Shown piece after piece: positions 17,019 to 37,436 of a DNA stretch of 64,000 nucleotides. Numbering within the stretch: the first letter of the stretch is position 1; each line of letters starts with the position of its first letter. Under the pieces are notes generated by a model. The model had not been told where the DNA came from and searched no databases. It saw only the letters and a program-made list of their open reading frames with translations. A program made the translations under genes and the position numbers. Source of the stretch: Gammaproteobacteria bacterium (lineage in GTDB: Bacteria; Pseudomonadota; Gammaproteobacteria; Xanthomonadales; SZUA-36); assembly GCA_021772935.1 (NCBI GenBank), contig JAJFLA010000046.1:248001-312000 (forward strand), given 5' to 3'.

Positions 17019-18233
17019 ATGAGCTACAGCTCGCGTGGGTTTGGCATACGCGGCTTACTACTCGCAGTGCTGGTCAACAGCCTGCTTATCGAGGCTCAAG
17101 CCCAGCAAGAAACTGTATCATTGGCACGCGCCGCAGAAGAAAGTAGAGGTATCACGGCGTTTCAGGATGCGCTTGATACGATTGAGTCCGAGCACGGTGC
17201 CTACGCAGATGCACTGGCCGAACCGCTTTATAGTCTTGCTTCGAGATTCCAACAAAATGACCGGCATAAAGAAGCGATCACAGCATTCAAACGGGGTCTC
17301 CACCTGACACGTATTAACCAGGGCCTCTTCAGCCTGGCACAAATCCCTTTCATCCAGGGTGAAATCACCAGTCATTTCGCCCTCAGCGAACTTCAGGCGG
17401 TTGACCAACGCCAGCGTTACCTGCTGAAGGTACAGCAACACAGTCTGCCCAGTGGTGAACCCCTTATTCAAGCACTGATGCAGCACGCCGACTGGCAGCA
17501 AAAAGCCTATGAACTTGGCCTCGATAACTTTGAGGACAGCATTATTCGTTTGCATGGCATGTGGGACCTGTATGGCGCAGCGATTGAAGACATTTTGAAA
17601 AATGATGGACCCGTTTCACTCAGGCTGTTGGCACCGCTCAACGGCTTAATGAAAACCCAATACATGATCTCCATCTATAATGCTGAAAAAATCAGAATTA
17701 ACCCAACAGTCAGCGCCCGTCAGGATGGGCTTGAAAGAGCTTTTTCACCCACTTATGTGCCGGGCAAATCAATTATCTGGTCAATCTATGAAGTGGAATT
17801 AAAACACCACGGGCAATACAGTCTGGAAGTCGCACAAACACTGGTGATGTTGGCGGACTGGATGCTATGGAGTAACAAGCCCGACTCAGCGCAGGAGACA
17901 TATACCAACGCGATAGAGGTACTTGCCAAACTTGATGACGCCGCCATACTGAAAGAACGTATATTCGGTTCGCCCATGTCGTTGCCGGATATTGATGGTT
18001 TACACGGCCTGCCCACCGCAGTGGCGACTGCTAAAGGTAAACTCCTTTTAGAATTCGGGGTTAACGCCCGTGGAAAAGTCTTCGGGATGAAACGACTGGA
18101 TCAAGTCGAGTTTAAAAAAAAGGAAGCGCAGCGATTGATGCGGAAAATCCGTAAAACGAAATTTCGGCCCCGTTATGTAGGTTTGGAAGCGGTCACTACG
18201 GAAAAGATTCAAAGGGCATATAGTGTTGAATAA
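17019..18233 (+). CDS. Secreted helical-repeat protein with TonB-like C-terminus, first gene of the accessory operon
   Basis: Not a recognised named protein. The ATG at 17019 follows a GGTGGAGA ribosome site and opens a clear signal peptide (GIRGLLLAVLVNSLLIEAQA), so the product is periplasmic; the frame stays open to 16914 but the extra residues are not signal-like. 404 residues. The body is alpha-helical with TPR-like pairs (for example EAITAFKRGLHLTRINQG). The last 55 residues (VNARGKVFGMKRL...RKIRKTKFRPRYV) resemble the C-terminal domain of TonB-type energy transducers. It overlaps the next gene by 11 bp. The TonB-like ending fits an operon that also encodes a TolQ-like protein. Confidence 0.7.
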   Translation: MSYSSRGFGIRGLLLAVLVNSLLIEAQAQQETVSLARAAEESRGITAFQDALDTIESEHGAYADALAEPLYSLASRFQQNDRHKEAITAFKRGLHLTRINQGLFSLAQIPFIQGEITSHFALSELQAVDQRQRYLLKVQQHSLPSGEPLIQALMQHADWQQKAYELGLDNFEDSIIRLHGMWDLYGAAIEDILKNDGPVSLRLLAPLNGLMKTQYMISIYNAEKIRINPTVSARQDGLERAFSPTYVPGKSIIWSIYEVELKHHGQYSLEVAQTLVMLADWMLWSNKPDSAQETYTNAIEVLAKLDDAAILKERIFGSPMSLPDIDGLHGLPTAVATAKGKLLLEFGVNARGKVFGMKRLDQVEFKKKEAQRLMRKIRKTKFRPRYVGLEAVTTEKIQRAYSVE

Positions 18234-19311
18234 ATTCATCAACGATGTGTTGAGCCACAGCCAACTAAGGTATGTTGGATTGATCATAAACTGTTTGCTA
18301 CTGAACGCCTGTGTCAGCGTAACTAAACCATCGAGTCCTTCCATACCATCGATTCCCAGTGCTTCACCGTCGAGTCCATCAAGTTCTCCAGCCAGCCCGC
18401 CTGGTTCACCGTCCAACCCGTCGAGTCCCTCACCATCCAACTCGCCACCTGCGTCTTCTAGCCCACGGCCTTCACCTCCAGCACCCCCCAGCGCTGCTAG
18501 CCCCGGGGCAATGGGTGACTTCCCACAAGGTGAAGCAGAACCGAACACACAAGATGATGACGAAGTACCAGACAACCAGGGGGACCCGGGTGCTGAGAAT
18601 CCGGATGGTAGCGTAGAAGAGTCAAACGGCAGCGAACTTGAGCCGGGTTTTGGAAGTGAGAGTGGCGATAATGACGGTTTGCCGGATCTTAGAGACGAAC
18701 CTTCACTGGAGGATACACTGGAATCTTTTGAGCATTCTACGGATCAAGCAGCTGGAGATGCTGGTGACTCAGGTGAGTCCAACAGCGGCAGCACAGGTAC
18801 AACCGGTGTGCAGAATAGGAGCTTAGAGACCAGACCGGGTGGGACCGCCGAAACTGGAAGCCGCGCTGGTGATGGATACGCTACCGGTGCGCGGACTTCG
18901 GCAGAGCAAACCAAAATCTTAAGTGATGAGTTGGAACGTCAAACCGGTGAATTTGACGCTATGATCCGTGATCAACAGGCAGCCCAGCGACGTGCAACAC
19001 GCCAGCAAACAACCATTCCTGACATGGCGACTGCCAGCGCTCAAAGTGATTCAGGGGACAGCACAGAAATAGATATCGATACCCATGAAACCAGCAGTGG
19101 TGGTGGTTTGGGTGGTCGTTCTGACACCACCGGCGGTGCAGGAATCCCTCAAAATACCGCCAAGTACCCGCCACCATCTGATATTCCTATGGGCAATGAC
19201 GATGACGTTGTTGCACGCCAGTTGCGAGAAGCGGCGATGCGCGAACCGGACCCTGAGCTTCGTCAAAAATTATGGCAGGAATATCGCAAGTACAAGGGCG
19301 TAAGTCATTGA
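18223..19311 (+). CDS. Lipoprotein with long Pro/Ser-rich and acidic linkers
   Basis: 362 residues with a lipoprotein signal ending at the lipobox LLNAC (Cys30), followed by about 60 residues almost entirely Ser and Pro, then an acidic Gly/Glu/Asp-rich stretch. The only folded-looking part is the C-terminal 50 residues (DDDVVARQLREAAMRE...LRQKLWQEYRKYK), which is helical and charged. It is likely a flexible tether from a membrane lipid to a partner in or across the periplasm. The ATG at 18223 lies inside the end of the preceding gene. Function unknown. Confidence 0.7.
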   Translation: MLNKFINDVLSHSQLRYVGLIINCLLLNACVSVTKPSSPSIPSIPSASPSSPSSSPASPPGSPSNPSSPSPSNSPPASSSPRPSPPAPPSAASPGAMGDFPQGEAEPNTQDDDEVPDNQGDPGAENPDGSVEESNGSELEPGFGSESGDNDGLPDLRDEPSLEDTLESFEHSTDQAAGDAGDSGESNSGSTGTTGVQNRSLETRPGGTAETGSRAGDGYATGARTSAEQTKILSDELERQTGEFDAMIRDQQAAQRRATRQQTTIPDMATASAQSDSGDSTEIDIDTHETSSGGGLGGRSDTTGGAGIPQNTAKYPPPSDIPMGNDDDVVARQLREAAMREPDPELRQKLWQEYRKYKGVSH

Positions 19312-20516
19312 TAACACCCTACCGCATACTAGCGTTGATAATGATCTGTGCCACACTATCAGGCTGTGTCAGCCAGACCGTTAACAGCAATTCTGTAAGC
19401 AACATAAAAACCGCAGCCAGCAACATCGAAGAAGACCTGTTGCTTGATGTCGATATAGCCATTTTCGACCCGGGCCTGGAAAACTATGAAGAGGGCCAAC
19501 AGGTATACCCGGAAGTCCGCAACGCGGAAGCCAATTATCTACCTAAGTTGCTCGCAGAAACTTTGCAAAATAGCGCTGCCTGGGGTGCAGTGCGTGTGGT
19601 ATCTGTTGCCAACAAGATCGCTGATCTGGTGATTCAAAGTAAAATTCTTTACTCCGACGGTGAAACCATACGGTTACACGTCTCCGCGACTGACTCGCGG
19701 GGTCAACTATGGCTGAACAAGGAATATCAGGGCCATGCCAGCCGTTATGCCTATACAGAGACCAGCCGGGTTCACCAGGACCCCTTCCTTTCCGTTTACA
19801 ACAATATTGCCAATGACCTTTTTGACATCCAGCAACAACTGTCGCCCGAGAATCGGAAAAACATCCGGCTGATCAGTGAGTTGTTATTTGCCCGTAGTTT
19901 TTCAGCGGATGCTTTCGATGCCTACCTTGCCCAAAATCGTAAAGGCTTGTACCAGATTAAACGTCTACCAGCAGAGGATGATCCTATGCTCGAAAGAGTC
20001 CGTAGTATCCGCGACCGGGATCTGTTGTTCATTGATACCATGCAGGAGTTCTTCATCAGTTTTAACGAAGAAATGCTCGAACCCTACCAGGAATGGCGCA
20101 AACTGAGTTATGAAGAGGCCATCGCGCTACGAGAGCTGAAAACCGAGAGCAGACGTCGTTTGATCGGTGGCGGTCTTGCCGTATTGGCAGGAATTGTCGG
20201 CGCTAGCGGCAATAGCAATGTCGGTCGTGTGGCGAGCAGCGTTGCCATTGTCGGTGGTGGCATGATGCTCAAAAGTGGCATGGAAAAACGCAACGAAGCT
20301 GAAATGCATGCAGAGTCACTGGAGGAATTAGGACAATCTTTAGGCGCGGAGATCACACCACAGGTCATAGAGCTACAAGACCGCACCGTTACTCTAAGTG
20401 GTACCGTGGAAGACCAATACACCCAGTGGCGCGAACTATTGGCTGAAATATATCGTTCGGAAATGGGCGATTTGGAACGACCCGACACAGTTGTCGATAC
20501 AGCCAATCCACGTTAA
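19308..20516 (+). CDS. Periplasmic lipoprotein, unknown function
   Basis: I propose the TTG at 19308 as start: AAGGG lies 9 bases upstream, TTG overlaps the TGA of the previous gene, and it gives a compact lipoprotein signal (MITPYRILALIMICATLSGC, Cys20). An ATG at 19272 would add 12 unlikely residues. About 402 residues. The first domain (about 35-150) looks like proteins that sense or modify envelope stress by a small alpha/beta fold, but I cannot name it. A Gly-rich hydrophobic stretch (GGGLAVLAGIVGASG and following) lies in the last third. The neighbours suggest a structural part of one envelope complex. Confidence 0.65.
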   Translation: MITPYRILALIMICATLSGCVSQTVNSNSVSNIKTAASNIEEDLLLDVDIAIFDPGLENYEEGQQVYPEVRNAEANYLPKLLAETLQNSAAWGAVRVVSVANKIADLVIQSKILYSDGETIRLHVSATDSRGQLWLNKEYQGHASRYAYTETSRVHQDPFLSVYNNIANDLFDIQQQLSPENRKNIRLISELLFARSFSADAFDAYLAQNRKGLYQIKRLPAEDDPMLERVRSIRDRDLLFIDTMQEFFISFNEEMLEPYQEWRKLSYEEAIALRELKTESRRRLIGGGLAVLAGIVGASGNSNVGRVASSVAIVGGGMMLKSGMEKRNEAEMHAESLEELGQSLGAEITPQVIELQDRTVTLSGTVEDQYTQWRELLAEIYRSEMGDLERPDTVVDTANPR

Positions 20517-20546
20517 AGCTAAATACCCTGATTCGCTGATTAATAT

Positions 20547-22076
20547 ATGTCTTCCCACAACGAGCAAATAGAACCCACCGGATTTGATACCCCGGATAAT
20601 TCCATTCCAGGTTCACTATCGGCCAGCTCGGGTAGTCGTACGAATGGAACGCCAGCCTGGGTATTGCCGATGCTGATGGTGCTGCTGGTGGCGGTTATTG
20701 GTGTTGTGTTCTGGCTACCGGGTCGTTTCAACCAGCAACCGATAGTTACATCGTCTAGTGCTGAACCTGTGTCTTCAACTTCTGTGGCAACAACTGACAG
20801 ACGTCAGGTAGCTGAGGTGGAGACCTCGCCGTGGTCAGACGCGCAAATGGCCAAACTACGCAAACAGGCCCAGGATGTCCTGACCGAGTTATTGGAAGCG
20901 CAATCCACATTGGAACAGCTTGAGGTAGTGCAATGGGCCGCAGAGGACTTTGCAGATGCAGGGGCACACGCTGCTGCTGGAGATATTGACTATCGTGAAC
21001 GGCGTTTTGAAGCAGCTCGTGTGAACTATGAAAAAGGCCTTGACGAACTACGAACCTTGCTAGAAATGTTTCCGCAGGTATTGAGAGATAATCTGGCTCG
21101 TGCGCATCAGGCGATAGATGCCGGTCAGAAAGAGACGGCTCAAGCCGCCTTGTTGATTGCAACTGCAATCGAAGCAGACAACGCAGAACTAGCCAGCTTG
21201 AAACAACGTGCGGCAGTAATGGAACAACTGTTGTCCTTATTGGCGCAGGCTGAGGAAGCAACAGCATCCTCTGAGCTCGCACTGGCTGTGCAATTATTGC
21301 AACAAGCCGTTGCACTGGATCCCCAATCCCATGCGGCCCAGTCTGAATTGGAGGTTGTGAGCAAGGCGTATACCAGGCAACGCTTCAATAAGGCGATGAG
21401 TGATGGCTACCTGGCGCTTAATATGACTCAATTTGATCGGGCAAGGTCAGCCTTCAAACAGGCGGCACAATTGGTAACTAATTCGGCAGTGGCAGCAAGC
21501 GCCCTGGATGATGTAAATACGGCCGAGACAACACAACGCCTTTCAGATCTGCAAGCCAAAGGCCAAGGCCATGTATCACAAGAGCAATGGGCAAAAGCAG
21601 TATCTGTTTTCGAACAAGCTTTGCAAATTGATGCCGGTCTGATGTTCGCCCAACAAGGTTTGAAAAGCAGCCAGGTACGTAACCATCTGGGTCAACAACT
21701 TCAGAGTGCGATTGAACAGCCCGAACGTCTGTCTGAAAAGGGCGTAGCAGAAGCCATTGCAAAATTGTTACGCTCGGCGGCCGAAATCAGTCCTCGTGGC
21801 CCTTTATTACAACAACGAATAACACAGTTGGAACTTGTGCTTAGAAGAGCCAACACACCCATTCATGTGAGCTTGCGTTCAGATATGGAAACCGAGGTAA
21901 GCTTACGCAAAGTTACTCACCTGGGTCGATTTCAGGAACATGAGTTGAGTCTGCGACCAGGCACCTACACCGCCGTTGGCAGCCGCGATGGCTACCGTGA
22001 CGTGCGGGTTACTTTTACTATCCAGCACGACACCGAGACAGCCACCGTAACCATCACCTGTACGGAACAGATATAG
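20547..22076 (+). CDS. Single-pass membrane protein with TPR-like repeats and PEGA-like tail
   Basis: 509 residues. A cytoplasmic Pro/Ser-rich N-terminus of about 36 residues is followed by one helix (37-57, WVLPMLMVLLVAVIGVVFWL), placing the rest in the periplasm. Residues about 85-410 are Ala/Gln/Leu-rich helical repeats with TPR character (for example QEQWAKAVSVFEQALQIDAG). The last 80 residues (HVSLRSDMETEVSL...LRPGTYTAVGSRDGYRDVRV) look like a PEGA beta domain. It ends 7 bp before the PEGA/FGE gene. Probably a periplasmic scaffold that binds peptidoglycan or partner proteins; no enzyme motif is visible. Confidence 0.72.
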   Translation: MSSHNEQIEPTGFDTPDNSIPGSLSASSGSRTNGTPAWVLPMLMVLLVAVIGVVFWLPGRFNQQPIVTSSSAEPVSSTSVATTDRRQVAEVETSPWSDAQMAKLRKQAQDVLTELLEAQSTLEQLEVVQWAAEDFADAGAHAAAGDIDYRERRFEAARVNYEKGLDELRTLLEMFPQVLRDNLARAHQAIDAGQKETAQAALLIATAIEADNAELASLKQRAAVMEQLLSLLAQAEEATASSELALAVQLLQQAVALDPQSHAAQSELEVVSKAYTRQRFNKAMSDGYLALNMTQFDRARSAFKQAAQLVTNSAVAASALDDVNTAETTQRLSDLQAKGQGHVSQEQWAKAVSVFEQALQIDAGLMFAQQGLKSSQVRNHLGQQLQSAIEQPERLSEKGVAEAIAKLLRSAAEISPRGPLLQQRITQLELVLRRANTPIHVSLRSDMETEVSLRKVTHLGRFQEHELSLRPGTYTAVGSRDGYRDVRVTFTIQHDTETATVTITCTEQI

Positions 22077-22083
22077 ACCGGCA

Positions 22084-24138
22084 ATGACGGATCAATCCCC
22101 TCTGACGGAACCCATCGAGCCACTGGCCTTCGAGCCACTGGCAGTCGGTAATGACAAGCGACGACGCGGCTTCAATCCATGGCGCTGGCTCCTGTTGGCA
22201 ACTGTTTTGGCCTTTGTTGCCATCATGAGTTTTCTGTTGAGTGCTCGATCAGTTCAAATAACAGTTCAGGCTGAGAGCGATGTTGACATCACACTTGACG
22301 GCGGCTGGTATCTGTCATTTGGTGAGCGCTATCTGTTACATCGCGGCCGTTACCAGGCCTCGGTTACCGCAGCAGGTTATTACCCTATTGATAGCGTCAT
22401 TAATGTCAGCGCTGAAGAGACACAGCTGGTACAACTGACGTTACGCCCGCTACCTGGCAGGCTGGATGTCGCTTCGCAACCCAGTGACGCAAAAGTGCTC
22501 ATTGACGGTGATCTGATTGGGAAAACACCAGTAAAAGCCAAGCCGGTACAGGCTGGACAACATCATTTGCGTATCGACAAAGCACGCTACCTGCCGCTGG
22601 AAAAGGAAATATCGATCCATGGGCGTGATATACAGCAGCAATTGGTGCTTCCACTTGAGCCCGCGTGGGCGGAGATCAGCATCGATAGTCAGCCACAAGG
22701 TGCGATCATACTGGTTGATGGTGAGGTTCAGGGGCGCACACCCGCAGTGGTGGAAATGCTGCAAGGAGAGCGTCAGCTAATATTGCAAAAAGAAACCTAT
22801 TCCGATTCACAACAAACGCTGATCATCGTTGCCAGTGAGAAGCAGGATCTGGGTAGACTGACACTACAAGCGGCCGCCGGTACGGTTCACTTGGTGAGTG
22901 TTCCAGGCCAGGCAAATGTGACCGTAGATGGTGAGTTTCGTGGTCAGACACCACTCAAGCTGACACTTAGCCCAGGACAACAACACACGCTGGCTGTATT
23001 TAAACCGGGTTACCAGCACTACACCAGCGAACTTGAACTAAGCGCTGGTACCCACCACAACCGTCGTGTTGAGCTGTTGCCACACCTGGGGGAGGTGCAC
23101 TTCAATATTGAGCCTCAAACAGCCATATTGATGATCGATGGTCAAGCACAGGGACAGGGCTCACGTCGTCTGGAATTGCCCGCAACTGAGCACAGCGTGG
23201 AAGTAGTATTAGAAGGCTATGCCAGCGTACATCGAAAGGTCACACCCCGTACCGGCCTGCAACAGGTGGTAACGGTCACGCTGGTGACTGAGCGTGAGGC
23301 ACAATTGTCAAAGCTCAAGCCAGAAGTGAACACTTTATTGGGTCAAACCTTGTTATTGTTCACACCGGACGACTTCATCATGGGAGCTTCGCGCCGGGAA
23401 CCTGGTCGCCGCCCCAATGAAGTGTTGCACCCGGTTTCTCTCAGCCGTATGTTTTACCTGCAGACAACCGAAATCACCAATGCAGAATTTCGTATTTTCC
23501 TGGCATCGCACAGTTCCGGTCAAATTGAAGCCAACAGCCTGAACCGTGAGCACCAACCCGTGGTGCAAGTCAGCTGGCAACAGGCAGCACAGTTCTGTAA
23601 CTGGCTTAGTACGAAAGAAGGGCTGACACCCTTTTACAGACAAGCCAAAGGAATCGTGACCGGTTACAACCGCGATGCTATCGGTTATCGCCTGCCGACC
23701 GAAGCTGAATGGGCATGGGCAGCAAGAGTACAAGCAGACCTGCTGTTGAAGTTTCCCTGGGGCGAATCCTTCCCACCGACCGAGGCTGTCGAAAACTATG
23801 CCGACAGAGGTTCGGCCCATGTCACTGGTCGTGTTCTGAATAAGTATCAGGACGGGCATGTGGTGAGTGCCACTGTAGGATCTTATCCAGCCAACAAAAA
23901 AGGCCTCTACGATATGGGTGGCAATGTGGCCGAATGGGTCCACGATGTATATCTCACAGCCTCGAGTGATGCGATCGGTCCGGCAGACCCAACCGGACCA
24001 CAATCCGGTGACAATTACGTCATACGTGGTGCTAGTTGGGCACATAGCAGAATTTCTGAATTACGTCTGTCGTTCCGTGATTACGGGCAAGCCGGTCGTG
24101 ATGACGTAGGCTTTCGTATTGCACGGTATGTGGAGTAA
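22084..24138 (+). CDS. PEGA-repeat membrane protein with C-terminal sulfatase-modifying-factor (FGE) fold
   Basis: 684 residues: short cytoplasmic tail, one helix (34-53), about four PEGA repeats (about 125-410; each has an IDG or VDG turn followed by GKTP, GRTP or GQTP), then an FGE/SUMF1-type domain (about 422-684) with FIMGASRREPGRRPNE, RLPTEAEWAWAAR, GGNVAEWVHD and a GFRIARY ending. The catalytic Cys pair of formylglycine-generating enzymes is absent from the ending region (RGASWAHSRISELRLSFRD), so I expect a binding role rather than sulfatase activation. The whole domain architecture faces the periplasm and follows the TPR/PEGA gene directly. Confidence 0.85.
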   Translation: MTDQSPLTEPIEPLAFEPLAVGNDKRRRGFNPWRWLLLATVLAFVAIMSFLLSARSVQITVQAESDVDITLDGGWYLSFGERYLLHRGRYQASVTAAGYYPIDSVINVSAEETQLVQLTLRPLPGRLDVASQPSDAKVLIDGDLIGKTPVKAKPVQAGQHHLRIDKARYLPLEKEISIHGRDIQQQLVLPLEPAWAEISIDSQPQGAIILVDGEVQGRTPAVVEMLQGERQLILQKETYSDSQQTLIIVASEKQDLGRLTLQAAAGTVHLVSVPGQANVTVDGEFRGQTPLKLTLSPGQQHTLAVFKPGYQHYTSELELSAGTHHNRRVELLPHLGEVHFNIEPQTAILMIDGQAQGQGSRRLELPATEHSVEVVLEGYASVHRKVTPRTGLQQVVTVTLVTEREAQLSKLKPEVNTLLGQTLLLFTPDDFIMGASRREPGRRPNEVLHPVSLSRMFYLQTTEITNAEFRIFLASHSSGQIEANSLNREHQPVVQVSWQQAAQFCNWLSTKEGLTPFYRQAKGIVTGYNRDAIGYRLPTEAEWAWAARVQADLLLKFPWGESFPPTEAVENYADRGSAHVTGRVLNKYQDGHVVSATVGSYPANKKGLYDMGGNVAEWVHDVYLTASSDAIGPADPTGPQSGDNYVIRGASWAHSRISELRLSFRDYGQAGRDDVGFRIARYVE

Positions 24139-24141
24139 AAC

Positions 24142-24441
24142 ATGCACAGCTCATCCAGATTTAAACATCCACTCAGCCTTATCCTGTTGATACTGCTATT
24201 GACTGTAGGTGGCTTGTCACTGGCAGCACAAAAGGCTGAAGATCCGGCTGACAGCGAGCAGACGCCTGCCAGTCAACAGCAATACAATGAGAATACGCCA
24301 ACCATGCCGTCTGTCCCTGATGCCGACAACGACCCCGCTGCGGCTCCCGAAGTCAAAAAAGCAGACAGCGATGTTTTCGATTACCAGCCTTCGGAGAAAA
24401 TCTCCGAAGACCTGTCAGTATCGTTCCCTGTAGATATTTAG
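24142..24441 (+). CDS. Small secreted protein
   Basis: 99 residues: a signal peptide (about 1-30, with LSLILLILLLTVGGLSLAAQ) and an acidic Gln/Ala/Pro-rich mature part without Cys. It starts 3 bp after the PEGA/FGE stop and ends just before the channel-subunit gene. Not recognised. Its place suggests a small accessory of the MotA/TolQ-like protein. Confidence 0.6.
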   Translation: MHSSSRFKHPLSLILLILLLTVGGLSLAAQKAEDPADSEQTPASQQQYNENTPTMPSVPDADNDPAAAPEVKKADSDVFDYQPSEKISEDLSVSFPVDI

Positions 24442-24450
24442 GACATGAAC

Positions 24451-25248
24451 ATGAAACACAATCTGTCTTCCGAATTTATTTTTCAGCTATTTGCACTGCT
24501 GATTACGATCGTTGTTGTGCACGCTGTTTACGTCGGGATCATCCGACCAAGTGCGAATGCACAGTTGCAGCATCAAATGGAACGACAGCTTGCCGGCGAA
24601 GACTTCGTGCCTGAACGCAGCCTGGCCGTAGTGGTTCGTGATTACGAGCAGGAGACCTGTTTTATCTTGTTATTTTGGGCCTTGGCCATTATGGGCTACA
24701 AAGGCCGCCTGTCCCTGCAGGAGAAAGCCATTCATCGTCAGGGCCTGCTGGAGATACCCGACGGAACCAGTGTATTACCACAGGATGCGCGCGAGTACAG
24801 CCGTTCATTGGAGGCATTGCCGCGTACAGAGCAAAACTTTCTATTGCCGAGAACATTGCTTTCAGGTTTGCAACGTTTTGCCACCACGGCAAGTATCCAG
24901 GCGGTGTCCACCACCATCAAGGAACAATGTGAGCTGGAATCGGACCGTCTCGATTCGGAGTTATCGATGGTCCGCTACATCGCGTGGGCAATCCCATCTA
25001 TCGGTTTCATCGGTACTGTACGTGGTATCGGTGATGCCCTGGGTCAAGCTTATAAGGCTGTCGAGGGGGATATCACCGGTGTGACAATCAGCCTTGGTGT
25101 GGCCTTTAATAGCACCTTTGTTGCACTGGTTCTGAGCATCATCATCATGTTTTGTCTGCATCAGTTGCAGTTGTCACAAGAGCGCGTTGTGCTGGATTGC
25201 CAGCGTTATGCTGATCAACGTCTTTTAAGTCACCTGGAGGTCCATTGA
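24451..25248 (+). CDS. MotA/TolQ/ExbB-like proton channel subunit
   Basis: Predicted inner-membrane stator-type channel protein. I choose the ATG at 24451, 7 bases after AGGA; another ATG at 24445 has almost no spacing. About 265 residues. From the upstream ATG, helices lie near 12-33, 70-85, 176-194 and 212-239. The last two match the family core: SIGFIGTVRGIGDALG corresponds to the LGTVxGI motif and GVTISLGVAFNSTFVALVLSI to the second pore helix. A roughly 90-residue cytoplasmic loop with Arg and Glu lies between helices 2 and 3. Its likely partners are the two VWA proteins encoded downstream, which carry ExbD/MotB-like helices. Confidence 0.82.
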   Translation: MKHNLSSEFIFQLFALLITIVVVHAVYVGIIRPSANAQLQHQMERQLAGEDFVPERSLAVVVRDYEQETCFILLFWALAIMGYKGRLSLQEKAIHRQGLLEIPDGTSVLPQDAREYSRSLEALPRTEQNFLLPRTLLSGLQRFATTASIQAVSTTIKEQCELESDRLDSELSMVRYIAWAIPSIGFIGTVRGIGDALGQAYKAVEGDITGVTISLGVAFNSTFVALVLSIIIMFCLHQLQLSQERVVLDCQRYADQRLLSHLEVH

Positions 25249-25250
25249 AC

Positions 25251-26516
25251 ATGAGTGTAGCCTTGCTCGACATCAATGACTGCAACCTGCAGTTGTGGCA
25301 TGGCGAGCAATTGTTGCAAAGCCCTGGGTACGCATTACTGGAGGGCGAACAATACCGTTTTGGCATGCCAGCCTGCAGTGTGGCAAGACTACGCCCCAGG
25401 GATATTAATAGCCGTTACTGGTGGCAACTCAATACCAAAGCCCTGAAAAACTCACTGGGCCCGGCCAGACACACAGCAGATCTCGTGCATGCCCACTTGC
25501 TGGAAATTCACGAACTAGCCGGACAACCAGAAGAACTGATACTTGTAGCCCCCTCCAGTATGCAACGAGAACAACTGTCCCTGTTGCTCGGTATTATTCA
25601 GCAATGTCCGTTCAACGCCGTGGGTCTGATCAACCGGAGCGTTGCCCTGGCGAGCCTATATGGCGGGCCAGGTAAGTTCTATCACCTTGAGATTCAGTTA
25701 CACCAAGCCGTCATTTCCGAGTTGAGCAACGATAATGGCAGGGTCGAACTGCAAAAGGTGTCGCCCTTGCCTGGTTGCGGATGGTTGCAACTTCAAGAGC
25801 ATTTGGTGGGCATCATTGCCCGGGTTTTTATCCGCCAAACCCGCTTCGACCCACGCCGCAAAGCAGAAACCGAGCAGTGCTTGTATGACCAGGTACCTGG
25901 CCTGCTGGGTGCTCTGGAAAACCAGGGGGAATACCAGCTGGAAATAGCGGGTTACCGCGCATCTGTCAGCCGCAGTGATTTGCTGGCCGCGACCGAGTCC
26001 TTGCGACAAAGTATCACCGTTGCCATCGGTACCCCAGATCCAGATGAGCGTATCATTCTGGAGCCACTGGCAGGATCTTTACCCGGCTTTTTTGAACAGT
26101 TTTCAGCAGCGGAGCGAATCGCTGACCAAGCCTTGTTGCAGGCGGTAAAACAGCACCAACCCTTGCTCTTACAACGCGAGCAGACACTAAATTTCGTTAC
26201 TTCGCTACCAAGTTTGACCCCGGTAACGTCACCACCAAGCGTAAGCTTGATCGCAGATAAGCACCCGCACCAGGCAGTGACACCAACCCACATGCTGGAG
26301 TGTGGCCGTGCAACACTGTTGACCGTCGATGGCATGAAGGTGGACTTGAAATGTGAATTGTACTGCCACGATGGTCATTGGCAACTGCGTGGTGACAAGC
26401 TAGAGACTGTGCGTGTCAATGGCCTTGCCTATGAGTCCGGCCAGGTATTGTATAGCGGCGATAAACTATCCACGGCGACAGGTCGTGACATTTCCCTGAT
26501 CGAAGTAGTGGGCTGA
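25251..26516 (+). CDS. Degenerate Hsp70/actin-like protein with FHA-like C-terminus
   Basis: About 421 residues from the ATG at 25251 (GGAGG 10 bases upstream); a TTG at 25245 overlapping the previous stop is an alternative. No signal peptide, so cytoplasmic. The start (VALLDINDCNLQLWHG...SPGYALL) and the middle (FYHLEIQLHQAVISEL...DPRRKAETEQCLYDQVP) fit an Hsp70-like ATPase fold, but the usual acidic and Gly-rich phosphate motifs are eroded, so ATP binding is doubtful. The last 75 residues (CELYCHDGHWQLRG...VRVNG...GQVLYSGDKLS) resemble an FHA beta sandwich. It may be the cytoplasmic regulator of the channel and VWA proteins. Function inferred only from fold impressions. Confidence 0.6.
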   Translation: MSVALLDINDCNLQLWHGEQLLQSPGYALLEGEQYRFGMPACSVARLRPRDINSRYWWQLNTKALKNSLGPARHTADLVHAHLLEIHELAGQPEELILVAPSSMQREQLSLLLGIIQQCPFNAVGLINRSVALASLYGGPGKFYHLEIQLHQAVISELSNDNGRVELQKVSPLPGCGWLQLQEHLVGIIARVFIRQTRFDPRRKAETEQCLYDQVPGLLGALENQGEYQLEIAGYRASVSRSDLLAATESLRQSITVAIGTPDPDERIILEPLAGSLPGFFEQFSAAERIADQALLQAVKQHQPLLLQREQTLNFVTSLPSLTPVTSPPSVSLIADKHPHQAVTPTHMLECGRATLLTVDGMKVDLKCELYCHDGHWQLRGDKLETVRVNGLAYESGQVLYSGDKLSTATGRDISLIEVVG

Positions 26517-26518
26517 TT

Positions 26519-27610
26519 ATGGCCCGGAAAAAGCGTTCATTCACGAATTTCAGTCTGAGCTTTCTGGACATCATGGCCTGTGGTTTCGGTGCCATTATCC
26601 TGGTTTTTTTGTTAATCGATCACTCCATCGAAGTGGTTTCAAATGATATTAACCAACACCTTTTATCCGAGGTAAACCTGCTCAAAGAGGACATTACCCT
26701 GGGCCAGAAAAATCTTGTGCGTTTACGCAACACACTTTCAGAAGTTGATTTGCAAATGGTCGATGCGTACGGCCGCGCCACACGTATCAACGAAGAACTG
26801 GAGAGTTTTGAGGCCCTGATCAAAGCCTTGCAGCGGGACGGACTAACTGATCAGGCTGACATTGAAGCCCTTAAGGCTGAAATTCAATCCCTGCAAGAGG
26901 AACTGACCAAGCTGCAACTAAACGCCGAGCAAGACACAGGTAACAGCGCCCGCAGCTTTATCGGTGAAGGTAATCGCCAATACCTGACTGGTCTCAATCT
27001 CGGTGGTCGATACATTGTAATTCTGCTCGATGTATCTGCCAGTATGTTGGATGATAAACTAATTAATATCATTCGTTTACGTAATATGTCTGAGGATATA
27101 CAACGTCAATCCAGCAAATGGAACCGTACATTGAATAGCGTTAACTGGTTAACCGCTCAGTTGCCGCTTGCCAGCCATTACCAGGTGATCACTTTTAATA
27201 CTCAGGCTGCTCCCGTGCTACCGGCAACACAGGGAAAGTGGCTCGAAGTTGCCGACAAGAATCAGTTGGAAAAAGTATCAACTAAATTACGCAAGCTGAC
27301 GCCGAGCGGTGGCACCAGTCTTGAAAATGCCTTTCGTGCCCTGGGCGAATTGTCACCCAGCCCCGACAATATTTTTCTTATTACTGACGGACTACCTACC
27401 CAGGGTGCCAGTCAGCCTCGGGGTACGACCATCAGCGGCCGTGAGCGGCAAAAGTTATACCGGCAGGCAATCAAACTGTTACCACGCAATGTACCCGTCA
27501 ATATCATCCTTGCCCCGATGGAAGGAGACCCCATGGCTGCCTCCGAATTCTGGCAACTCGCCCAGGTGAGCAAGGGTTCTTTCATGAGCCCCTCAAGAGA
27601 TTGGCCCTGA
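26519..27610 (+). CDS. Membrane-anchored VWA protein 1 with ExbD/MotB-like helix
   Basis: 363 residues. A short basic N-terminus leads into one helix (about 13-33) with Asp17 at its start in SFLDIMACGFGAIIL; an Asp at this spot is the proton carrier in ExbD, TolR and MotB. Residues about 44-136 form a coiled coil. The C-terminal half is a von Willebrand factor A domain with an intact metal site: DVSAS (171-175), the Thr in SGGTSL, and ITDG. It should be periplasmic. It starts 2 bp after the Hsp70-like gene and overlaps the second VWA gene (TGATG). Proposed role: the B-type subunit of a stator, with VWA in place of a peptidoglycan-binding domain. Confidence 0.82.
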   Translation: MARKKRSFTNFSLSFLDIMACGFGAIILVFLLIDHSIEVVSNDINQHLLSEVNLLKEDITLGQKNLVRLRNTLSEVDLQMVDAYGRATRINEELESFEALIKALQRDGLTDQADIEALKAEIQSLQEELTKLQLNAEQDTGNSARSFIGEGNRQYLTGLNLGGRYIVILLDVSASMLDDKLINIIRLRNMSEDIQRQSSKWNRTLNSVNWLTAQLPLASHYQVITFNTQAAPVLPATQGKWLEVADKNQLEKVSTKLRKLTPSGGTSLENAFRALGELSPSPDNIFLITDGLPTQGASQPRGTTISGRERQKLYRQAIKLLPRNVPVNIILAPMEGDPMAASEFWQLAQVSKGSFMSPSRDWP

Positions 27611-28605
27611 TGTCCAGGCGCACCACACCTGAAGTGTTTGGTCTGTCGTTTCTCGATGTGATCTCTTGTGGTTTCGGTGCGATCATCTTGTTACTGATCA
27701 TTACCAAGACGGTTCAGCCGCAAATTATTGAGGCTTCGACAGTCCGACTGGACGGTCGGGTCGCAGCTTTGCGGGAGCAGTTGATGGAGATCAGGGGCGA
27801 AACCAAAGTCCTCAACCGTGATTTGAATGCAAAACACGAGCAGTTATCCCAGCAGCAACAGCGGATTGCAATTTTAAGAGGCCATCTGGCCAGCGCCAGA
27901 TCTCAGCATGACACTCTGAACCTCAATACCAATGCTAATGACATTATTACCGGTCAATTGGCGATTGCCAGACAAGCGCTATCGGAAGAGATGAAACGCC
28001 TGCTAGGGACCCAGTACATGTCGAAAAATAATCTGATAGGTGGCATACCGGTCGACAGCGAATACATTATTTTTGTAATAGATACCTCCGGTTCCATGTT
28101 CTCTTATAGTTGGGAACGTATGTTGCAGGAATTGGAGGCGACATTGAGAATATATCCAAAGGTCAAGGGAATCCAGGTACTCAATGACATGGGTAAGTAC
28201 ATGTTCAGTCGTTACCGCGGTAAATGGATTCCAGATACACCCGGCCGCCGCCAGGTCATTTTACAAACCCTGCGCACCTGGAACGTGTTCAGTAACTCCA
28301 GCCCGGTCGAAGGTATCACCCAGGCCATCAGGAGTTTCCACGAACCGGGTAAAAAAATCAGTGTTTATGTTTTTGGTGACGAGTTTACCGGGGATTCCAT
28401 CGCCGATGTCGTCAACACGGTGGACCGGATTAACCAGGCTGACGCCGAAGGTAACCGGCTGGTACGCATACATGCCGTGGGCTTCCCGGTACAGTTTATC
28501 CGGGCTCCGCATATGCAAACTACAGGTATTCGCTTTGCCACACTGATGCGAGAACTCACTTATCGTAATGGAGGAACTTTTGTTGGCCTTAATGATTTTC
28601 GCTAA
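27610..28605 (+). CDS. Membrane-anchored VWA protein 2 with ExbD/MotB-like helix
   Basis: 332 residues from the ATG at 27610, which overlaps the stop of VWA 1. Same plan: helix about 12-32 with Asp16 in SFLDVISCGFGAIILLLI, coiled coil about 45-130, and a VWA domain with DTSGS (158-162). The Thr of the metal site is less clear than in protein 1 (NSSPVEG in place of GGTSL), so metal binding may be weaker. The N-terminal 30 residues closely resemble protein 1, while the VWA domains have diverged, which argues for an old duplication and possibly a heterodimer. Confidence 0.82.
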   Translation: MSRRTTPEVFGLSFLDVISCGFGAIILLLIITKTVQPQIIEASTVRLDGRVAALREQLMEIRGETKVLNRDLNAKHEQLSQQQQRIAILRGHLASARSQHDTLNLNTNANDIITGQLAIARQALSEEMKRLLGTQYMSKNNLIGGIPVDSEYIIFVIDTSGSMFSYSWERMLQELEATLRIYPKVKGIQVLNDMGKYMFSRYRGKWIPDTPGRRQVILQTLRTWNVFSNSSPVEGITQAIRSFHEPGKKISVYVFGDEFTGDSIADVVNTVDRINQADAEGNRLVRIHAVGFPVQFIRAPHMQTTGIRFATLMRELTYRNGGTFVGLNDFR

Positions 28606-29239
28606 AACTCGAACGCTGGCAGCCACAACAACCTGGCTAAGTATCCTGTTATTGATCAGCGCGTGTGGTACCAGACAAGTACTGGTACAGGGTCAGTTTC
28701 CAACACCCGTGATGGATAGAGTGCCAATAACGCTCGGTGTTTGGTATGAGGATGAATTTTCAAACCATGTGTTTTTCGATGAAACAAAAAGCAAATCCGA
28801 GGCGGATTGGATTGTGGAAACAGGTCCGGCCCAGGTGGCCATGTGGAATACGCTGCTTGCTGGAATGTTTGAAAACCTGGTCCATATACAAGCTCGCCCC
28901 AGTGCTGACAGTCAGAGCCCTTTAGTCGATGCAATACTAATCCCCCATGTTGAGGAGTTACAGTACACTCTTCCCAGTCAGACCAATGTCAACGTATACG
29001 AAATCTGGTTGCGTTACCGTTTTGAAGTGGTCAGCACTCGTGGTGAGGCAATTGCTGAGTTATCCATGACCGCCTACGGCAAGACCCCTACCGCCTTTTT
29101 AAAAAATAGCGAAAAAGCCATTAATCTCGCGGCAATCATGGCCCTTCGGGATGCTGGCGCCCATTTTGCACTCAATTTTTCCCATGAGCCGGCACTTCAG
29201 CAATGGTTACATCAATTTGGGACGACAGAGCTTGATTAA
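28592..29239 (+). CDS. Lipoprotein, unknown function
   Basis: About 215 residues. The signal peptide ends in the lipobox LLISAC. Start choice is uncertain: GGAGGA at 28569-28574 favours a TTG at 28583, while the ATG at 28592 gives a normal signal; an ATG at 28568 overlaps the previous gene by 38 bp. The mature part begins with VPITLGVWYEDEFSNHVF, has a two-layer alpha/beta look, and contains EIWLRYRFEVVSTRGEAIAEL, a pattern seen in several outer-membrane-linked lipoproteins. I cannot name the family. Fifth from last domain type of the operon that is anchored by lipid. Confidence 0.62.
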   Translation: MIFAKTRTLAATTTWLSILLLISACGTRQVLVQGQFPTPVMDRVPITLGVWYEDEFSNHVFFDETKSKSEADWIVETGPAQVAMWNTLLAGMFENLVHIQARPSADSQSPLVDAILIPHVEELQYTLPSQTNVNVYEIWLRYRFEVVSTRGEAIAELSMTAYGKTPTAFLKNSEKAINLAAIMALRDAGAHFALNFSHEPALQQWLHQFGTTELD

Positions 29240-29900
29240 TCCACCTCACAGACTGCTGCCAATTACCACTACGATCATGCTACTCAGCGGTTGTGTGACC
29301 GCAACTGTCGATGAGATGGTTTTCAACGAACCCACTGCCGGTATTGGAAATTCAACCGTGGTCATCCTGGGCCGGCGTCAAGCCAGTGACCAGGATACTG
29401 AACTGAGCTTTGTCGAGTGTGTCGGCAAACACATATCAAGTCGGGATAAATCCATCATCGTATTGGGAGAGTTGGATTTTATTGACGCGCTGTACCCCTG
29501 GTTTGAACCACGCACTGCACCCTTGCGCCCTACAGCACTTAAAAAGTTGATGCAACGCCGACCGGTGGCACAAAAAATGGCTGAGCTCAATACCGAATAC
29601 ATGATCTGGATTAATGGCAACACCGAACGGACCCATTCAATGAGTTCTATGTCTTGCACCCTGAGTCCTGCTGGTGGTGGCTGTTTCGGTTTTTCACATT
29701 GGAGCGACGAATCTAATTATGAAGCCGTGATCTGGAACTTTACAGATATGGCTGAGGTCGGTCGTGTTAGCACCAACGCCAGCGGTCAGTCTTATATGCC
29801 TGCAATTTTCATCCCCATTCCCATTATTGCGCCGGTCAAGGGAACTGCCTGTAATGGTATTGGAGATCAACTGCTGAAGTTCCTGTCCGCTCATTATTGA
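29232..29900 (+). CDS. Lipoprotein, unknown function
   Basis: I favour the TTG at 29232, which overlaps the end of the preceding gene and gives a short lipoprotein signal (MINPPHRLLPITTTIMLLSGC, Cys21). The frame is open up to an ATG at 29151, but that would put 27 non-signal residues in front. About 222 residues. Mature region: FNEPTAGIGNSTVVILGRRQ, one Cys pair region (SMSCTLSPAGGGCFGFS) that could form a disulfide, and a Pro/Ile-rich ending. Not recognised. Third case in this operon of a lipoprotein start nested in the upstream stop. Confidence 0.58.
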   Translation: MINPPHRLLPITTTIMLLSGCVTATVDEMVFNEPTAGIGNSTVVILGRRQASDQDTELSFVECVGKHISSRDKSIIVLGELDFIDALYPWFEPRTAPLRPTALKKLMQRRPVAQKMAELNTEYMIWINGNTERTHSMSSMSCTLSPAGGGCFGFSHWSDESNYEAVIWNFTDMAEVGRVSTNASGQSYMPAIFIPIPIIAPVKGTACNGIGDQLLKFLSAHY

Positions 29901-29911
29901 TGGAGGTAAAC

Positions 29912-31351
29912 ATGGACAGAATCGGCAACAGGTTTTCTGGGTTTCCAGGCATGCTATGCAAACTTGCTGTGATGGTTGCCTGTGTCAGTCAGCCACTGAT
30001 AGGTGATGCGGATGCTTTGTTGTTCTCAGCCAAAAAAGAAAAGTCCGTTGGCCGTGAAATGCACAATGAAATGATGGCCGAAGGTGCAGCCTACGACAAT
30101 CAGGCTTTACAGGATTATGTAAATCGCATCGGTCAGAGCCTGGTAGCCAATAGTGACCGCCCCAAGTTTCCGTTTACCTTTACCGTTCTTGATAATCCAG
30201 ATATCAACGCGTTCGCAACCCCGGGTGGATATATCTATATCAATCGGGGTCTGATGGCCTATCTGGATAATGAGGCAGAGCTGGCGGGTGTAATTTCTCA
30301 CGAAATTGGCCATATTACCGCTCGCCACCCATCACGTCAGAAGACAGCCAATGTAAGCAATAAAACTTTGGGCTTCCTGGCCTATGTTTTCACTGGCAGC
30401 CGGGATGTCGCGGAGGCAGCCTCCATGGCAGGTACTGCGCTGGTTCGGGGTTACGGTAGAGAACACGAACTGGAAGCCGATGGTCTGGGTGCCCGTTATA
30501 TGCACGCGACCGGATATGATCCCTACGTGTTGCTGGACGTGATCGGAGTGCTCAAACGCCAGGAACAGTTCCAACGCCTGAAAGCCAGGTCTTCTGGTAA
30601 GCAGCTCGGTAGTTATCATGGTCTGTACTCGACCCATCCAAGGAATGATGCCCGTCTGCAACAGGTGATTCGAACCTCGGGAGAATTGGATCAAACCACA
30701 CAGGACCCTTCACGCCCTGGTGAGTTCAAGCAACAAATGGAAGGTCTGGCCTGGGGCGCGAGTTCCCAGAATCAACGATCAGATGATCGCTATTACCATA
30801 ACAAGCTGGGTTTCACTTTGATCCAACCGCAAGGCTGGGATGTGAAGGCGGGTTCAAAGGCTATCGTGGCAAGTTCCAGTGCCGCTGATAGCTCTCTGAC
30901 CATTAGTGTACGTAAGCTTGATAACAGTATTAAACTGCGTAAAGTGTTGGAAAACAATGTAACCGGCAGTTTATCCGCCGGTAAAGAACTCGACCAGACT
31001 GGATTGCTTGGATATACCGCCGTTGCCAGCATCAATACTGATTCCCGACGGGTGGCTGCGATAAACTACAAAAACATCACCTATCTGTTTGAAGGCAAAG
31101 CCTCTGATTTTGCCAACGCGGACAAAACCCTTTTAAGTATGGTCGAAAGTTTCCGTCCCATACACCCGAATGAACGGCAAACCGGTAAACCCCATTTCAT
31201 CCACTACATTCAGGTTCCACGTGGTGCCACACTGGCGAGTCTTGCGGTCGGTATCCGCATCCCTGATGCAGAAAGCCGTTTACGTTTATTAAATGGTTTT
31301 TATCCACGTGGAGAGCCTCGAACCGGGGACTGGATCAAGGTGATTCGTTAA
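29912..31351 (+). CDS. M48-family periplasmic metalloprotease
   Basis: Zinc metallopeptidase related to BepA/LoiP-type proteases of outer-membrane quality control. The ATG at 29912 has GGAGG 7 bases upstream; 479 residues. Signal peptide about 1-35; zinc motif HEIGH (130-134) in VISHEIGHITARHP; third ligand in the REHELEADGLGARY segment. The second half carries a domain with GFTLIQPQGWDVK and a C-terminal LysM-like stretch (PRGATLASLAVGI...LRLLNGFYP...GDWIKVI). Last gene of the operon, so it may mature or proofread the complex built by the upstream genes. Confidence 0.88.
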   Translation: MDRIGNRFSGFPGMLCKLAVMVACVSQPLIGDADALLFSAKKEKSVGREMHNEMMAEGAAYDNQALQDYVNRIGQSLVANSDRPKFPFTFTVLDNPDINAFATPGGYIYINRGLMAYLDNEAELAGVISHEIGHITARHPSRQKTANVSNKTLGFLAYVFTGSRDVAEAASMAGTALVRGYGREHELEADGLGARYMHATGYDPYVLLDVIGVLKRQEQFQRLKARSSGKQLGSYHGLYSTHPRNDARLQQVIRTSGELDQTTQDPSRPGEFKQQMEGLAWGASSQNQRSDDRYYHNKLGFTLIQPQGWDVKAGSKAIVASSSAADSSLTISVRKLDNSIKLRKVLENNVTGSLSAGKELDQTGLLGYTAVASINTDSRRVAAINYKNITYLFEGKASDFANADKTLLSMVESFRPIHPNERQTGKPHFIHYIQVPRGATLASLAVGIRIPDAESRLRLLNGFYPRGEPRTGDWIKVIR

Positions 31352-31767: not shown

Positions 31768-32730
31768 CTAATCGCCATTTGAGTTTAAACAGACAGGCAA
31801 TACAGCATGAATACTTGCTCTTTTTTCTTGAAGTTTCTTGGCGATATTGAAAGTTAAAGGATCAAAGTTTTTAATTGATTCAATTGGCACATAACCTTCT
31901 TCAGGTTTTTCCAAAACACTTGTCCGATCCCGCAAGAAGGTTTCATCCTTTTCATGCAGGTATTCCCAACCACCATTAGCAAAAGAATACCCAATATCAG
32001 ATATTTTAACTTTTAGATTGTTGTGCCTAGAGAGACTTAAAGCACACTGAATAACCTCAGAATAGTGATCTTCTGAGCAGCTTGAGCCCACGGGATCATC
32101 AGAAAGCAATGAGTCAAAAGCATACAGATCGGAGAGCAGAAAACTGATTTTTAATGGCACAATTTGTTCAGCTTTACCTTTCAACGAAACCAAAAGAAAA
32201 ATCTCTCTAAACAGACTTTCCTTAATCACTGTAAGATCAATTGAGAAATATAGTTTTTTAAAGAATGAATCAAAATCATCCATGATAAACAGATTCGATG
32301 AATCTTTAATAATGAGATCAACTTCACTGCAAACACTGAGATATTTTTTAACCTTTTTGTTCTTCAAACCAATTGTTTCTTGTAATCCTTCCAATCTTTT
32401 TCGAATTGTTGGCAGTTTGTGAATTATTGCTTTGGTTGTAGCAATCTCTTCATCATTTTCATCAATCAGTGTAATGTCATCTACAGAAATGGAGCCTTTA
32501 TCTTTGAGGTGAATATTTTGTCTGCCATCAAGTAGATCATCTGAATAATTGTCTAGCTTTCTTAGTTTCGCTTCTGTTTGATTTGAAAATGATTCTGTGA
32601 CCTCCACCCCCAGTATGAAATCCTTTTCTCCTTCAATAAAAAAATCTGGTGATTCATGAGCAATAGGTTCAACGGAAAACTTCCCCCCATATACCATTTG
32701 GAAGAGCTCTTTCTCTTCGTCTTTATTCAT
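31768..32730 (-). CDS. Island protein with PD-(D/E)xK-like motif, unknown
   Basis: 320 residues, acidic, Asp/Ser/Lys-rich, no signal or membrane segment. Near the N-terminus SPDF (27-30) and VEVTE (42-46) are spaced like the PD...(D/E)xK core of restriction-type nucleases, but Thr stands where Lys is usual. The stop lies 17 bp from the left direct repeat. It overlaps the upstream island gene by 8 bp, so the two are made together. Base composition is far more AT-rich than the surrounding chromosome. A nuclease role is only an inference. Confidence 0.55.
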   Translation of the reverse strand: MNKDEEKELFQMVYGGKFSVEPIAHESPDFFIEGEKDFILGVEVTESFSNQTEAKLRKLDNYSDDLLDGRQNIHLKDKGSISVDDITLIDENDEEIATTKAIIHKLPTIRKRLEGLQETIGLKNKKVKKYLSVCSEVDLIIKDSSNLFIMDDFDSFFKKLYFSIDLTVIKESLFREIFLLVSLKGKAEQIVPLKISFLLSDLYAFDSLLSDDPVGSSCSEDHYSEVIQCALSLSRHNNLKVKISDIGYSFANGGWEYLHEKDETFLRDRTSVLEKPEEGYVPIESIKNFDPLTFNIAKKLQEKRASIHAVLPVCLNSNGD

Positions 32731-33748
32731 CAGATTTTAAATCAACAAACTTTGAGATATTCTCACGGTTAATATGCTTACCAAAATTTTTCATATCAAA
32801 CCCTCGGAAATTTGCTTCAGCAATGAAATCCCCGAACACTAAAGTCTGTTCACCTAGAACTTCTACTGGTACTTTTATCCCACCTTTAATCATCGCTGGA
32901 GCAGTCTCCTCAAAAACTTTGGCACCAAATTTCATAACTTCTTCATCGGTCCATCCTCTCATATACGGATTTTGTTGATACCAGATCGTTCTTGCTTCAT
33001 GCCGTTTTAAAGGGCTTTTCTGAATTTCCTCTTTCTGTACAAACTCATCCCATGAAAAGTTATCCGGGTGAACATATTCAACTCCGCTACCATTAAACTG
33101 ACCCCATGCGAGAACTAAGTAGTTCAAGTACTCTTCAACCTTTCTTGGCACTGGACTAGGCCCGTCAATTCTCAAAACTGATGAAGCTCTATTTTTATAT
33201 TGGTGTGTTTCTGTTATTAGAATTACTAAATTAACCTCATTGAACCTCCTAGAAAAGTCTTCTCTCGTTTGTTTGAGGCGTGCTTGAATCCTATGAGACA
33301 GTATTTCAGGGGATAGGACACTGACTGAATCATTGAGGATTACCAATATTCCTATAGAATCAGGGATATTGAAAATCATTTTAGTAGCTGAGATTTGTGA
33401 ATTTGAGTTCTTAAAATAATACTCAATAAGTTGTGTAGTTTTCGAAATTATTTTCTTCTGTATTTCTTCTTTATTGGGTGCATGGTCAAGAATTTTGTTG
33501 ATATCCATTCCTCCAAAAAACATCGGATACCAATCTTCTTTCTCATGTTCATCCATGAATCCTTGAATCTTCTGGGCTTGGTCTTGGGTTATACATTTCT
33601 GTTCGAAGACTACATTTCTTCCAAGACCAAAATAGTCTGCTTTTTTACTACCAGAAAGACCACCCAGATCAAGATCATCAATTAACTCCACTGAAGGCAG
33701 GGTTTTCATGAATTGTTCAAATCTGTTTTCTATTGAAGTCACTGCCAT
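32723..33748 (-). CDS. Island protein with D-x10-ExK motif, putative nuclease
   Basis: 341 residues. KKADYFGLGRNVVFEQK has Asp38, then a hydrophobic strand, then Glu49-Gln-Lys51, the layout of the PD-(D/E)xK catalytic core. The middle holds two hydrophobic strands (IGILVILND, VNLVILITE) that would suit the same fold. No membrane segment. It lies 5' of, and overlaps, the other nuclease-like gene, suggesting a two-subunit effector. Upstream are 160 bp before the next gene. No named family recognised; AT-rich composition points to acquisition with the island. Confidence 0.58.
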   Translation of the reverse strand: MAVTSIENRFEQFMKTLPSVELIDDLDLGGLSGSKKADYFGLGRNVVFEQKCITQDQAQKIQGFMDEHEKEDWYPMFFGGMDINKILDHAPNKEEIQKKIISKTTQLIEYYFKNSNSQISATKMIFNIPDSIGILVILNDSVSVLSPEILSHRIQARLKQTREDFSRRFNEVNLVILITETHQYKNRASSVLRIDGPSPVPRKVEEYLNYLVLAWGQFNGSGVEYVHPDNFSWDEFVQKEEIQKSPLKRHEARTIWYQQNPYMRGWTDEEVMKFGAKVFEETAPAMIKGGIKVPVEVLGEQTLVFGDFIAEANFRGFDMKNFGKHINRENISKFVDLKSDE

Positions 33749-37132: not shown

Positions 37133-37206
37133 TGGAGGCCAGGGTCGGAATCGAACCGGCGTAGACGGCTTTGCAGGCCGCAGCATGACCACTCTGCCAC
37201 CTGGCC
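37133..37206 (-). tRNA. tRNA-Cys (GCA)
   Basis: 74 bases including an encoded CCA. Acceptor arms GGCCAGG/CCTGGCC pair fully, the anticodon loop is CTGCAAA (anticodon GCA), and the T arm has GGTTCGATTCC. Transcribed with the neighbouring tRNA-Gly, probably from upstream of it. Confidence 0.96.
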
Positions 37207-37314
37207 TCAGGGAAGAGTTCCCAGGCAATTGCCCAGAAGCGCGGTATTCTACTATCCACCGAGTCACAATGCTATGTGTTAGATCATGAAAAACCCGGTT
37301 ATTTATGCCACACA

Positions 37315-37352: not shown

Positions 37353-37360
37353 CAGAAATT

Positions 37361-37436
<76 letters not shown>

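Follow-up and report, generated by a model that had tools for sequence, protein, structure and literature searches.

The window analysed here is a stretch of 64,000 nucleotides of gammaproteobacterial DNA (Xanthomonadales, SZUA-36; contig JAJFLA010000046.1), and its positions 17019-31351 carry an operon of thirteen genes (g01-g13) that is predicted to encode one envelope machine driven by the proton motive force (PMF) and reaching from the inner to the outer membrane. Such a machine had been proposed from the letters of the DNA alone (hereafter, the original prediction), and the proposal is now well supported, because the order of the genes is kept across families and two classes of bacteria, as are the Asp and Thr assigned to the putative proton path. 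The assignment of the motor, formed by the TolQ-like channel g07 and the two VWA proteins g09 (VWA1) and g10 (VWA2), is sound, and the machine as a whole would do mechanical or assembly work. Only a small number of envelope machines driven by the PMF are known, every one of which has opened a field.

Conservation and Distribution of the Operon

All thirteen open reading frames (ORFs) are co-directional on the plus strand, and inspection of their coordinates agrees with the tight packing first described: every junction is either an overlap or a gap of 2-30 bp. The original prediction had staked the idea of a single machine on this order being kept in other genomes, and it is kept across many families and two classes. 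Loci in named genomes were picked via the channel alone, as the best 80 of at least 562 matching stretches. Genes g01-g12 stand in identical order and strand in 52 of the 53 loci with enough flanking sequence, 37 of those 52 also having g13, which is conservation far beyond chance. The carriers are mainly Halieaceae, Microbulbifer, Exilibacterium, Porticoccus and kin, so that the operon is widespread in marine gammaproteobacteria. Some genomes lack g08, and in others g11 and g12 are divergent and lie upstream. Of 41 relatives, 27 have a channel homologue, which in several of them is only a sibling paralogue. Across the class, the VWA2 profile has matches in 35 of the 369 genomes sampled (about 28 of them strong), usually with the VWA1 partner approximately 1 kb away.

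A clear core emerges from family f49, which bears the label of a different class within the phylum. In all five f49 loci examined, g02-g03-g04-g05-g07-g09-g10 are present and g01, g06, g08 and g11-g13 are absent beside them; we take these seven genes to be the core of the predicted machine. The flanks beyond the thirteen genes, with families judged by eye, contain no recurrent partner, only housekeeping-type, lineage-specific neighbours. A phage or plasmid origin was considered and rejected, as VWA2 has no match in the plasmid collection searched and the channel none in the phage collection searched.

The Channel and the Putative Proton Path

The match of g07 to PF01618 is above the cut-off, in agreement with its first description as a TolQ/MotA-like channel, and among solved structures the channel profile comes closest to those of TolQ (at a weak E of 0.06). 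Residues T145 and T178 of TolQ align with T191 and T224 of g07 (the alignment itself numbers the g07 residues one lower). It was shown that in TolQR these threonines form a polar ring that contacts D23 of TolR (PMC12583513). In g07 both are invariant in 94 of 94 sequences and are also kept in the other class. The partner residue is equally constant: D17 of VWA1, in the helix FLDIMACGFGAIILVFLLI, is invariant in 85/85 sequences and D19 of VWA2, in the helix FLDVISCGFGAIILLLIIT, in 80/80. The latter number depends on the start codon, being D19 when counted from TTG at 27601 and D16 when counted from ATG at 27610; of the "Asp16/Asp17" pair named originally, D17 of VWA1 thus stands as given and D16 of VWA2 holds only if the ATG is the start.

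The same window contains a canonical ExbB/ExbD pair on the minus strand (3654-4720), beside msbA-like and lpxK-like genes, which provides a contrast for the VWA axle helices: the helix of its ExbD (3654-4085) is LIDVVFLLLIFFMV.

The Paired VWA Proteins and Their Predicted Axle

Both g09 and g10 match VWA families in Pfam and have a complete metal ion-dependent adhesion site (MIDAS) in addition to the helix Asp, and so two VWA proteins with an ExbD/MotB-like helix were correctly recognized. The D/S/S/D residues of the MIDAS are present in 85/85 VWA1 sequences, where Thr266 is found in 80 and Ser in its place in 5 of the 85, and in 80/80 aligned VWA2 orthologues. Helix and VWA head are joined in each protein by a segment of about 95 residues whose hydrophobic period is exactly 3.5, and this segment is therefore predicted to be a coiled coil. 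The distances from Asp to MIDAS (VWA1/VWA2) range from 135/133 in the other class up to 154/142 in Halieaceae, and they covary, with a raw correlation of 0.88 over 90 loci. With phylogenetic contrasts r = 0.70 (25 contrasts non-zero in both), a value reached by none of 20,000 permutations. The lengths of the VWA heads, unlike those of the rods, have a correlation of about zero. When heptads are counted from the membrane Asp, the two proteins share the same register in 24 of 39 representatives, compared to 1/7 expected by chance, and in 19 of the 24 in-register representatives the predicted e-g charge pairs favour a mixed dimer.

The covariation of the rods, the heptad register and the e-g charges together suggest that g09 and g10 form one heterodimeric coiled-coil shaft. 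Three points weigh against this reading: covariation of the rods is equally expected for two homodimers that need equal height, descent of both proteins from one VWA ancestor could account for part of the register, and the comparison of charges takes no account of phylogeny. A single channel gene could then serve two separate motors, in which g07 is combined with a homodimer of either g09 or g10 and both extend to the same partner; any target height common to the two would explain the length covariation, and the same question is open for AglQ/AglS (PMC9389320). We consider two such homodimers unlikely, since the register and the charge complementarity favour the mixed g09-g10 pair and since VWAs of this kind are described as predominantly occurring in heterologous pairs in the part of the literature that treats them (PMC12204202).

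Scaffold, Lipoproteins and Accessory Genes

The thirteen genes are listed in Table 1. Pfam matches agree with the TPR, PEGA and FGE-fold scaffold parts of the original prediction, and its remaining assignments also survived: lipobox-like sites are found in g02, g03, g11 and g12 (its four lipoproteins), the TonB-like ending of g01 recurs among the orthologues, and g13 has the PF01435 match and HEIGH motif of an M48 protease.

Table 1. Genes of the operon, with their predicted products and the evidence for each.
Gene	Position	Strand	Predicted product	Set	Evidence
g01	17019..18233	+	Exported TPR protein, TonB_C-like C-terminus	accessory	TPR_12 in 17/18, TonB_C in 9/18 orthologues
g02	18223..19311	+	Pro/Ser-rich low-complexity lipoprotein, putative tether	core	lipobox-like site
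g03	19272..20516	+	Lipoprotein; N-terminal alpha/beta domain, then long helical hairpin with Gly-rich tip	core	
g04	20547..22076	+	Inner-membrane anchored periplasmic TPR protein, terminal beta domain	core	TPR_2 E 2e-7; transmembrane segment 39-57
g05	22084..24138	+	FGE-fold head on a stalk of 4 PEGA domains, anchored in the inner membrane	core	PEGA E 2e-50; FGE E 2e-41
g06	24142..24441	+	Small exported protein		C-terminal FPVDI-COOH, sole strongly conserved part
g07	24445..25248	+	MotA/TolQ/ExbB-family proton channel	core	PF01618, 53.8 bits (cut-off 22.9)
g08	25245..26516	+	Cytoplasmic degenerate Hsp70/actin-fold protein with FHA-like domain	accessory	
g09 (VWA1)	26519..27610	+	ExbD-like helix with Asp17, ~95-aa coiled coil, VWA head	core	PF13519 E 5e-9
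g10 (VWA2)	27601..28605	+	ExbD-like helix with Asp19, coiled coil, VWA head	core	VWA_3, weak, E 3e-3
g11	28568..29239	+	Lipoprotein	accessory	lipobox ISAC
g12	29151..29900	+	Lipoprotein	accessory	lipobox LSGC
g13	29897..31351	+	Exported M48 metalloprotease	accessory	PF01435 E 1e-34; HEIGH at residue 135

The ORF of g01, a gene outside the f49 core, opens with GTG at 16914, and the signal peptide begins at the ATG at 17019. The last ~40 residues of g02 are conserved even between classes (DDD.vARQ.REAA..E.DP; match in the other class E 1e-27). The AlphaFold2 model of g03 has a predicted local distance difference test score (pLDDT) of 80, and its N-terminal domain is weakly like TolB D1 and LptE, the best Foldseek matches (E 1.1e-3, low template modelling (TM) scores). 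A sequence search of the PDB with g03, g11 and g12 gave nothing credible, Pfam has no match for g11 and g12, and a Pfam scan of 45 g08 and 37 g03 orthologues gave no useful family. The membrane helix of g05 is at its N-terminus. Its only Cys, C505, is outside the C-terminal catalytic region, where the catalytic Cys pair of FGE is lacking, and g05 is therefore not a formylglycine enzyme.

The g06 gene adjoins g07 in 78/78 loci, and its FPVDI ending is found in 69 of 92 orthologues; a VWA head may dock on this end. Acidic residues are frequent ligands of VWA metal sites, and for this reason the conserved ends of both g02 and g06 are candidate VWA ligands. Genes g11 and g10 are adjacent in 65/65 loci. 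For g08, the Hsp70-like part of the original description stands (AlphaFold2 model with a mean pLDDT of 94; Foldseek matches to Hsp70 nucleotide-binding domains with E 6e-16 and a TM-score of about 0.55), and the FHA-like part has weaker backing, from weak matches of the C-terminus to entries such as KIF13B and Ki-67, which we take to be FHA domains. The Gly-rich phosphate loops were not seen upon inspection of g08, which has LDLND at the N-terminus and, later, HLEIQLHQ without DxGGGT; therefore, the protein is probably a pseudo-ATPase. Scans for promoters and terminators gave no excess over chance.

The minus-strand gene divergent from the operon (14830-16428) encodes a 532-aa protein that has membrane segments and for which no Pfam family is convincing. 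Downstream of the operon, at 31768-33748 on the minus strand, a pair of neighbouring ORFs (320 and 341 aa), neither with a Pfam match, lies beside an XRE-like regulator and is perhaps part of a mobile island near the tRNA genes at 37133-37436.

The Proposed Machine

The arrangement that we favour as the likelier one is a proton-driven trans-envelope machine in which g07 is the wheel, g09 and g10 are a heterodimeric axle, inner-membrane scaffolds surround the axle, and force is applied to outer-membrane parts. The TolQ-like wheel would be a pentamer, and inside it the membrane-spanning helices of g09 and g10 would serve as the axle, each contributing one proton-binding Asp. Beyond the membrane, g09 and g10 would continue as a single parallel coiled-coil heterodimer about 95 residues (roughly 14 nm) long, and its two metal-site VWA heads, which differ from each other, would stand far out in the periplasm. 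The g04 and g05 proteins, both anchored in the inner membrane, would hold the TPR/PEGA stalks and an enzyme-dead FGE hub round the axle. The VWA heads may grip or pull the g02 tether, the hairpin lipoprotein g03 and then g11/g12, so that proton flow would be converted to force or torque at the outer membrane. The g08 protein could serve as a cytoplasmic regulator or anchor and g13 in quality control. The most likely cellular role would be tethering or organisation of the outer membrane by force transduction; this role, the stoichiometry, the rotation and the action of the VWA heads on lipoproteins are the parts that we infer, and what the sequences show directly is the conservation, the key residues and the coiled-coil signals.

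Several observations speak against this arrangement. None of the thirteen genes encodes an outer-membrane beta-barrel or an obvious substrate, the link of the VWA heads to g02 and g03 rests on domain logic only, and the likeness of g03 to TolB/LptE is weak (E 1e-3).

Comparison with Known Systems

The motor belongs to a type that was predicted recently. One family of vWA proteins, described in 2025 (PMC12204202, Mol Biol Evol), is closely associated with tolQ homologues, has no tolR/exbD beside it and occurs mostly in heterologous pairs. Its "TPH-vWA" motors, in which an Idiomarina-type tolQ is accompanied by paired vWA genes, have a TolR/ExbD-like helix and Asp, AlphaFold3 models place the Asp pair in a Thr ring, and, in the section on these motors, function is given only as probable force transduction. 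The operon has the same tolQ-like channel with an adjacent heterologous vWA pair, g09/g10, the same kind of helix with a conserved transpore-helix Asp in both VWAs (D17, 85/85; D19, 80/80) and the same Thr ring, and there is no tolR, exbD or motB (and no ExbD among the thirteen genes), in accord with the published description on every feature examined. The PEGA and FGE domains, a g03-type lipoprotein and the Hsp70/FHA parts are not mentioned in that section, and no paper dealing with the periplasmic and outer-membrane components of the operon came up in the literature searched. The word "undescribed" in the original prediction thus fails for the motor of tolQ and paired VWAs and stands, as far as that section goes, for the rest of the operon. 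What is added here to that account, within the same limit, is the evidence for the coiled-coil axle and the seven-gene core.

A second paired-VWA motor is encoded in the same genome (G000:C41, about 176,000-184,500; locus L043, 4046-12469, minus strand). Its genes encode two VWA proteins, of which the one at 10590-11543 has a degenerate MIDAS, an FHA protein, a channel, another FHA protein and a fusion of a Ser/Thr kinase with an FGE fold, and its rods are near-equal at 134 and 131 residues. Most members of the family to which the genome belongs have an orthologue of this channel, and no further clear orthologue was found in 299 sampled genomes of the phylum. The kinase and the FHA domains suggest that paired-VWA motors may be regulated by phosphorylation and form a wider, regulated class.

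For an anti-phage defence system like Zorya speaks a weak match of the channel to the ZorA model in PADLOC (E 0.0015). A Zorya-like function is, nonetheless, extremely unlikely: the operon has no effector nuclease or helicase, PADLOC gave no other meaningful match, and the operon is long and of conserved order, with no match to VWA2 in the plasmid collection or to the channel in the phage collection. A defence system was rejected, since apart from the weak ZorA match PADLOC returned coiled-coil noise, with no ZorB and no ZorC/D/E.

In AglRQS of Myxococcus, as proposed for the operon, a single channel works with two different axle proteins, AglR being combined with two MotB-like proteins, AglQ and AglS (PMC9389320). 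With this precedent of one channel and two axle types, the operon could encode a gliding or surface-motility engine like Agl-Glt, which would also accommodate its TPR and VWA parts. We regard such an engine as very improbable. AglQ/S bear TolR-like domains, in place of which the operon has VWA heads, and there is no gene for an adhesin, a barrel or a polarity GTPase. Many of the carrier taxa are marine planktonic bacteria not known to glide. For AglRQS it is an open question whether a motor of 5:2 stoichiometry can work when its two axle subunits differ, and the operon offers a clean way to test this.

The likeness to GldLM/PorLM-PorKN is a PMF motor, a long periplasm-spanning shaft and a non-enzymatic FGE-fold partner; in PorK, the FGE fold is the structural hub of a PMF-driven machine (PMC12421860). 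It is conceivable that the operon encodes a type IX-like secretion or surface-assembly machine, in which the axle drives an FGE-fold periplasmic ring to export or display a product. The best NCBIfam match of the g05 FGE head is indeed GldK (E 4e-33), an FGE fold and a PMF motor are also joined in PorK/PorLM (PMC12421860), and the g13 protease could process the cargo. However, the GldK score of 115 bits is far under the equivalog cut-off of 350, which places g05 outside GldK/PorK, and FGE folds are common. The g05 protein is anchored in the inner membrane and is not a lipoprotein, the axle is built of a coiled coil and VWA heads in place of Ig-like domains, the operon has no Sov/GldN, outer-membrane translocon or secretin gene, and no cargo gene recurs in the flanks. 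A secretion machine is thus doubtful.

With Tol-Pal the operon shares the channel family and the proton-path residues, outer-membrane lipoprotein partners and, in g03, a domain weakly like TolB D1. It differs in having an axle of coiled coil and VWA, and no TolR, TolA, TolB or Pal is found among the thirteen genes. TolB is encoded on another contig of the same genome (C54), near the best match to the channel family (also C54), and the operon is therefore no replacement for Tol-Pal. Thus, with no Tol-Pal components, a ZorA match that is only weak and a GldK score below the cut-off, the operon is not Tol-Pal, Zorya or Gld, as originally predicted. We see about an even chance that it represents a new trans-envelope nanomachine of two classes of Proteobacteria, which would have an obligately heterodimeric 14-nm axle with two VWA heads and act, beside canonical Tol-Pal, through an enzyme-dead FGE/PEGA scaffold on dedicated outer-membrane lipoproteins. 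The best reading is that the machine works like Tol-Pal or GldLM and belongs to neither.

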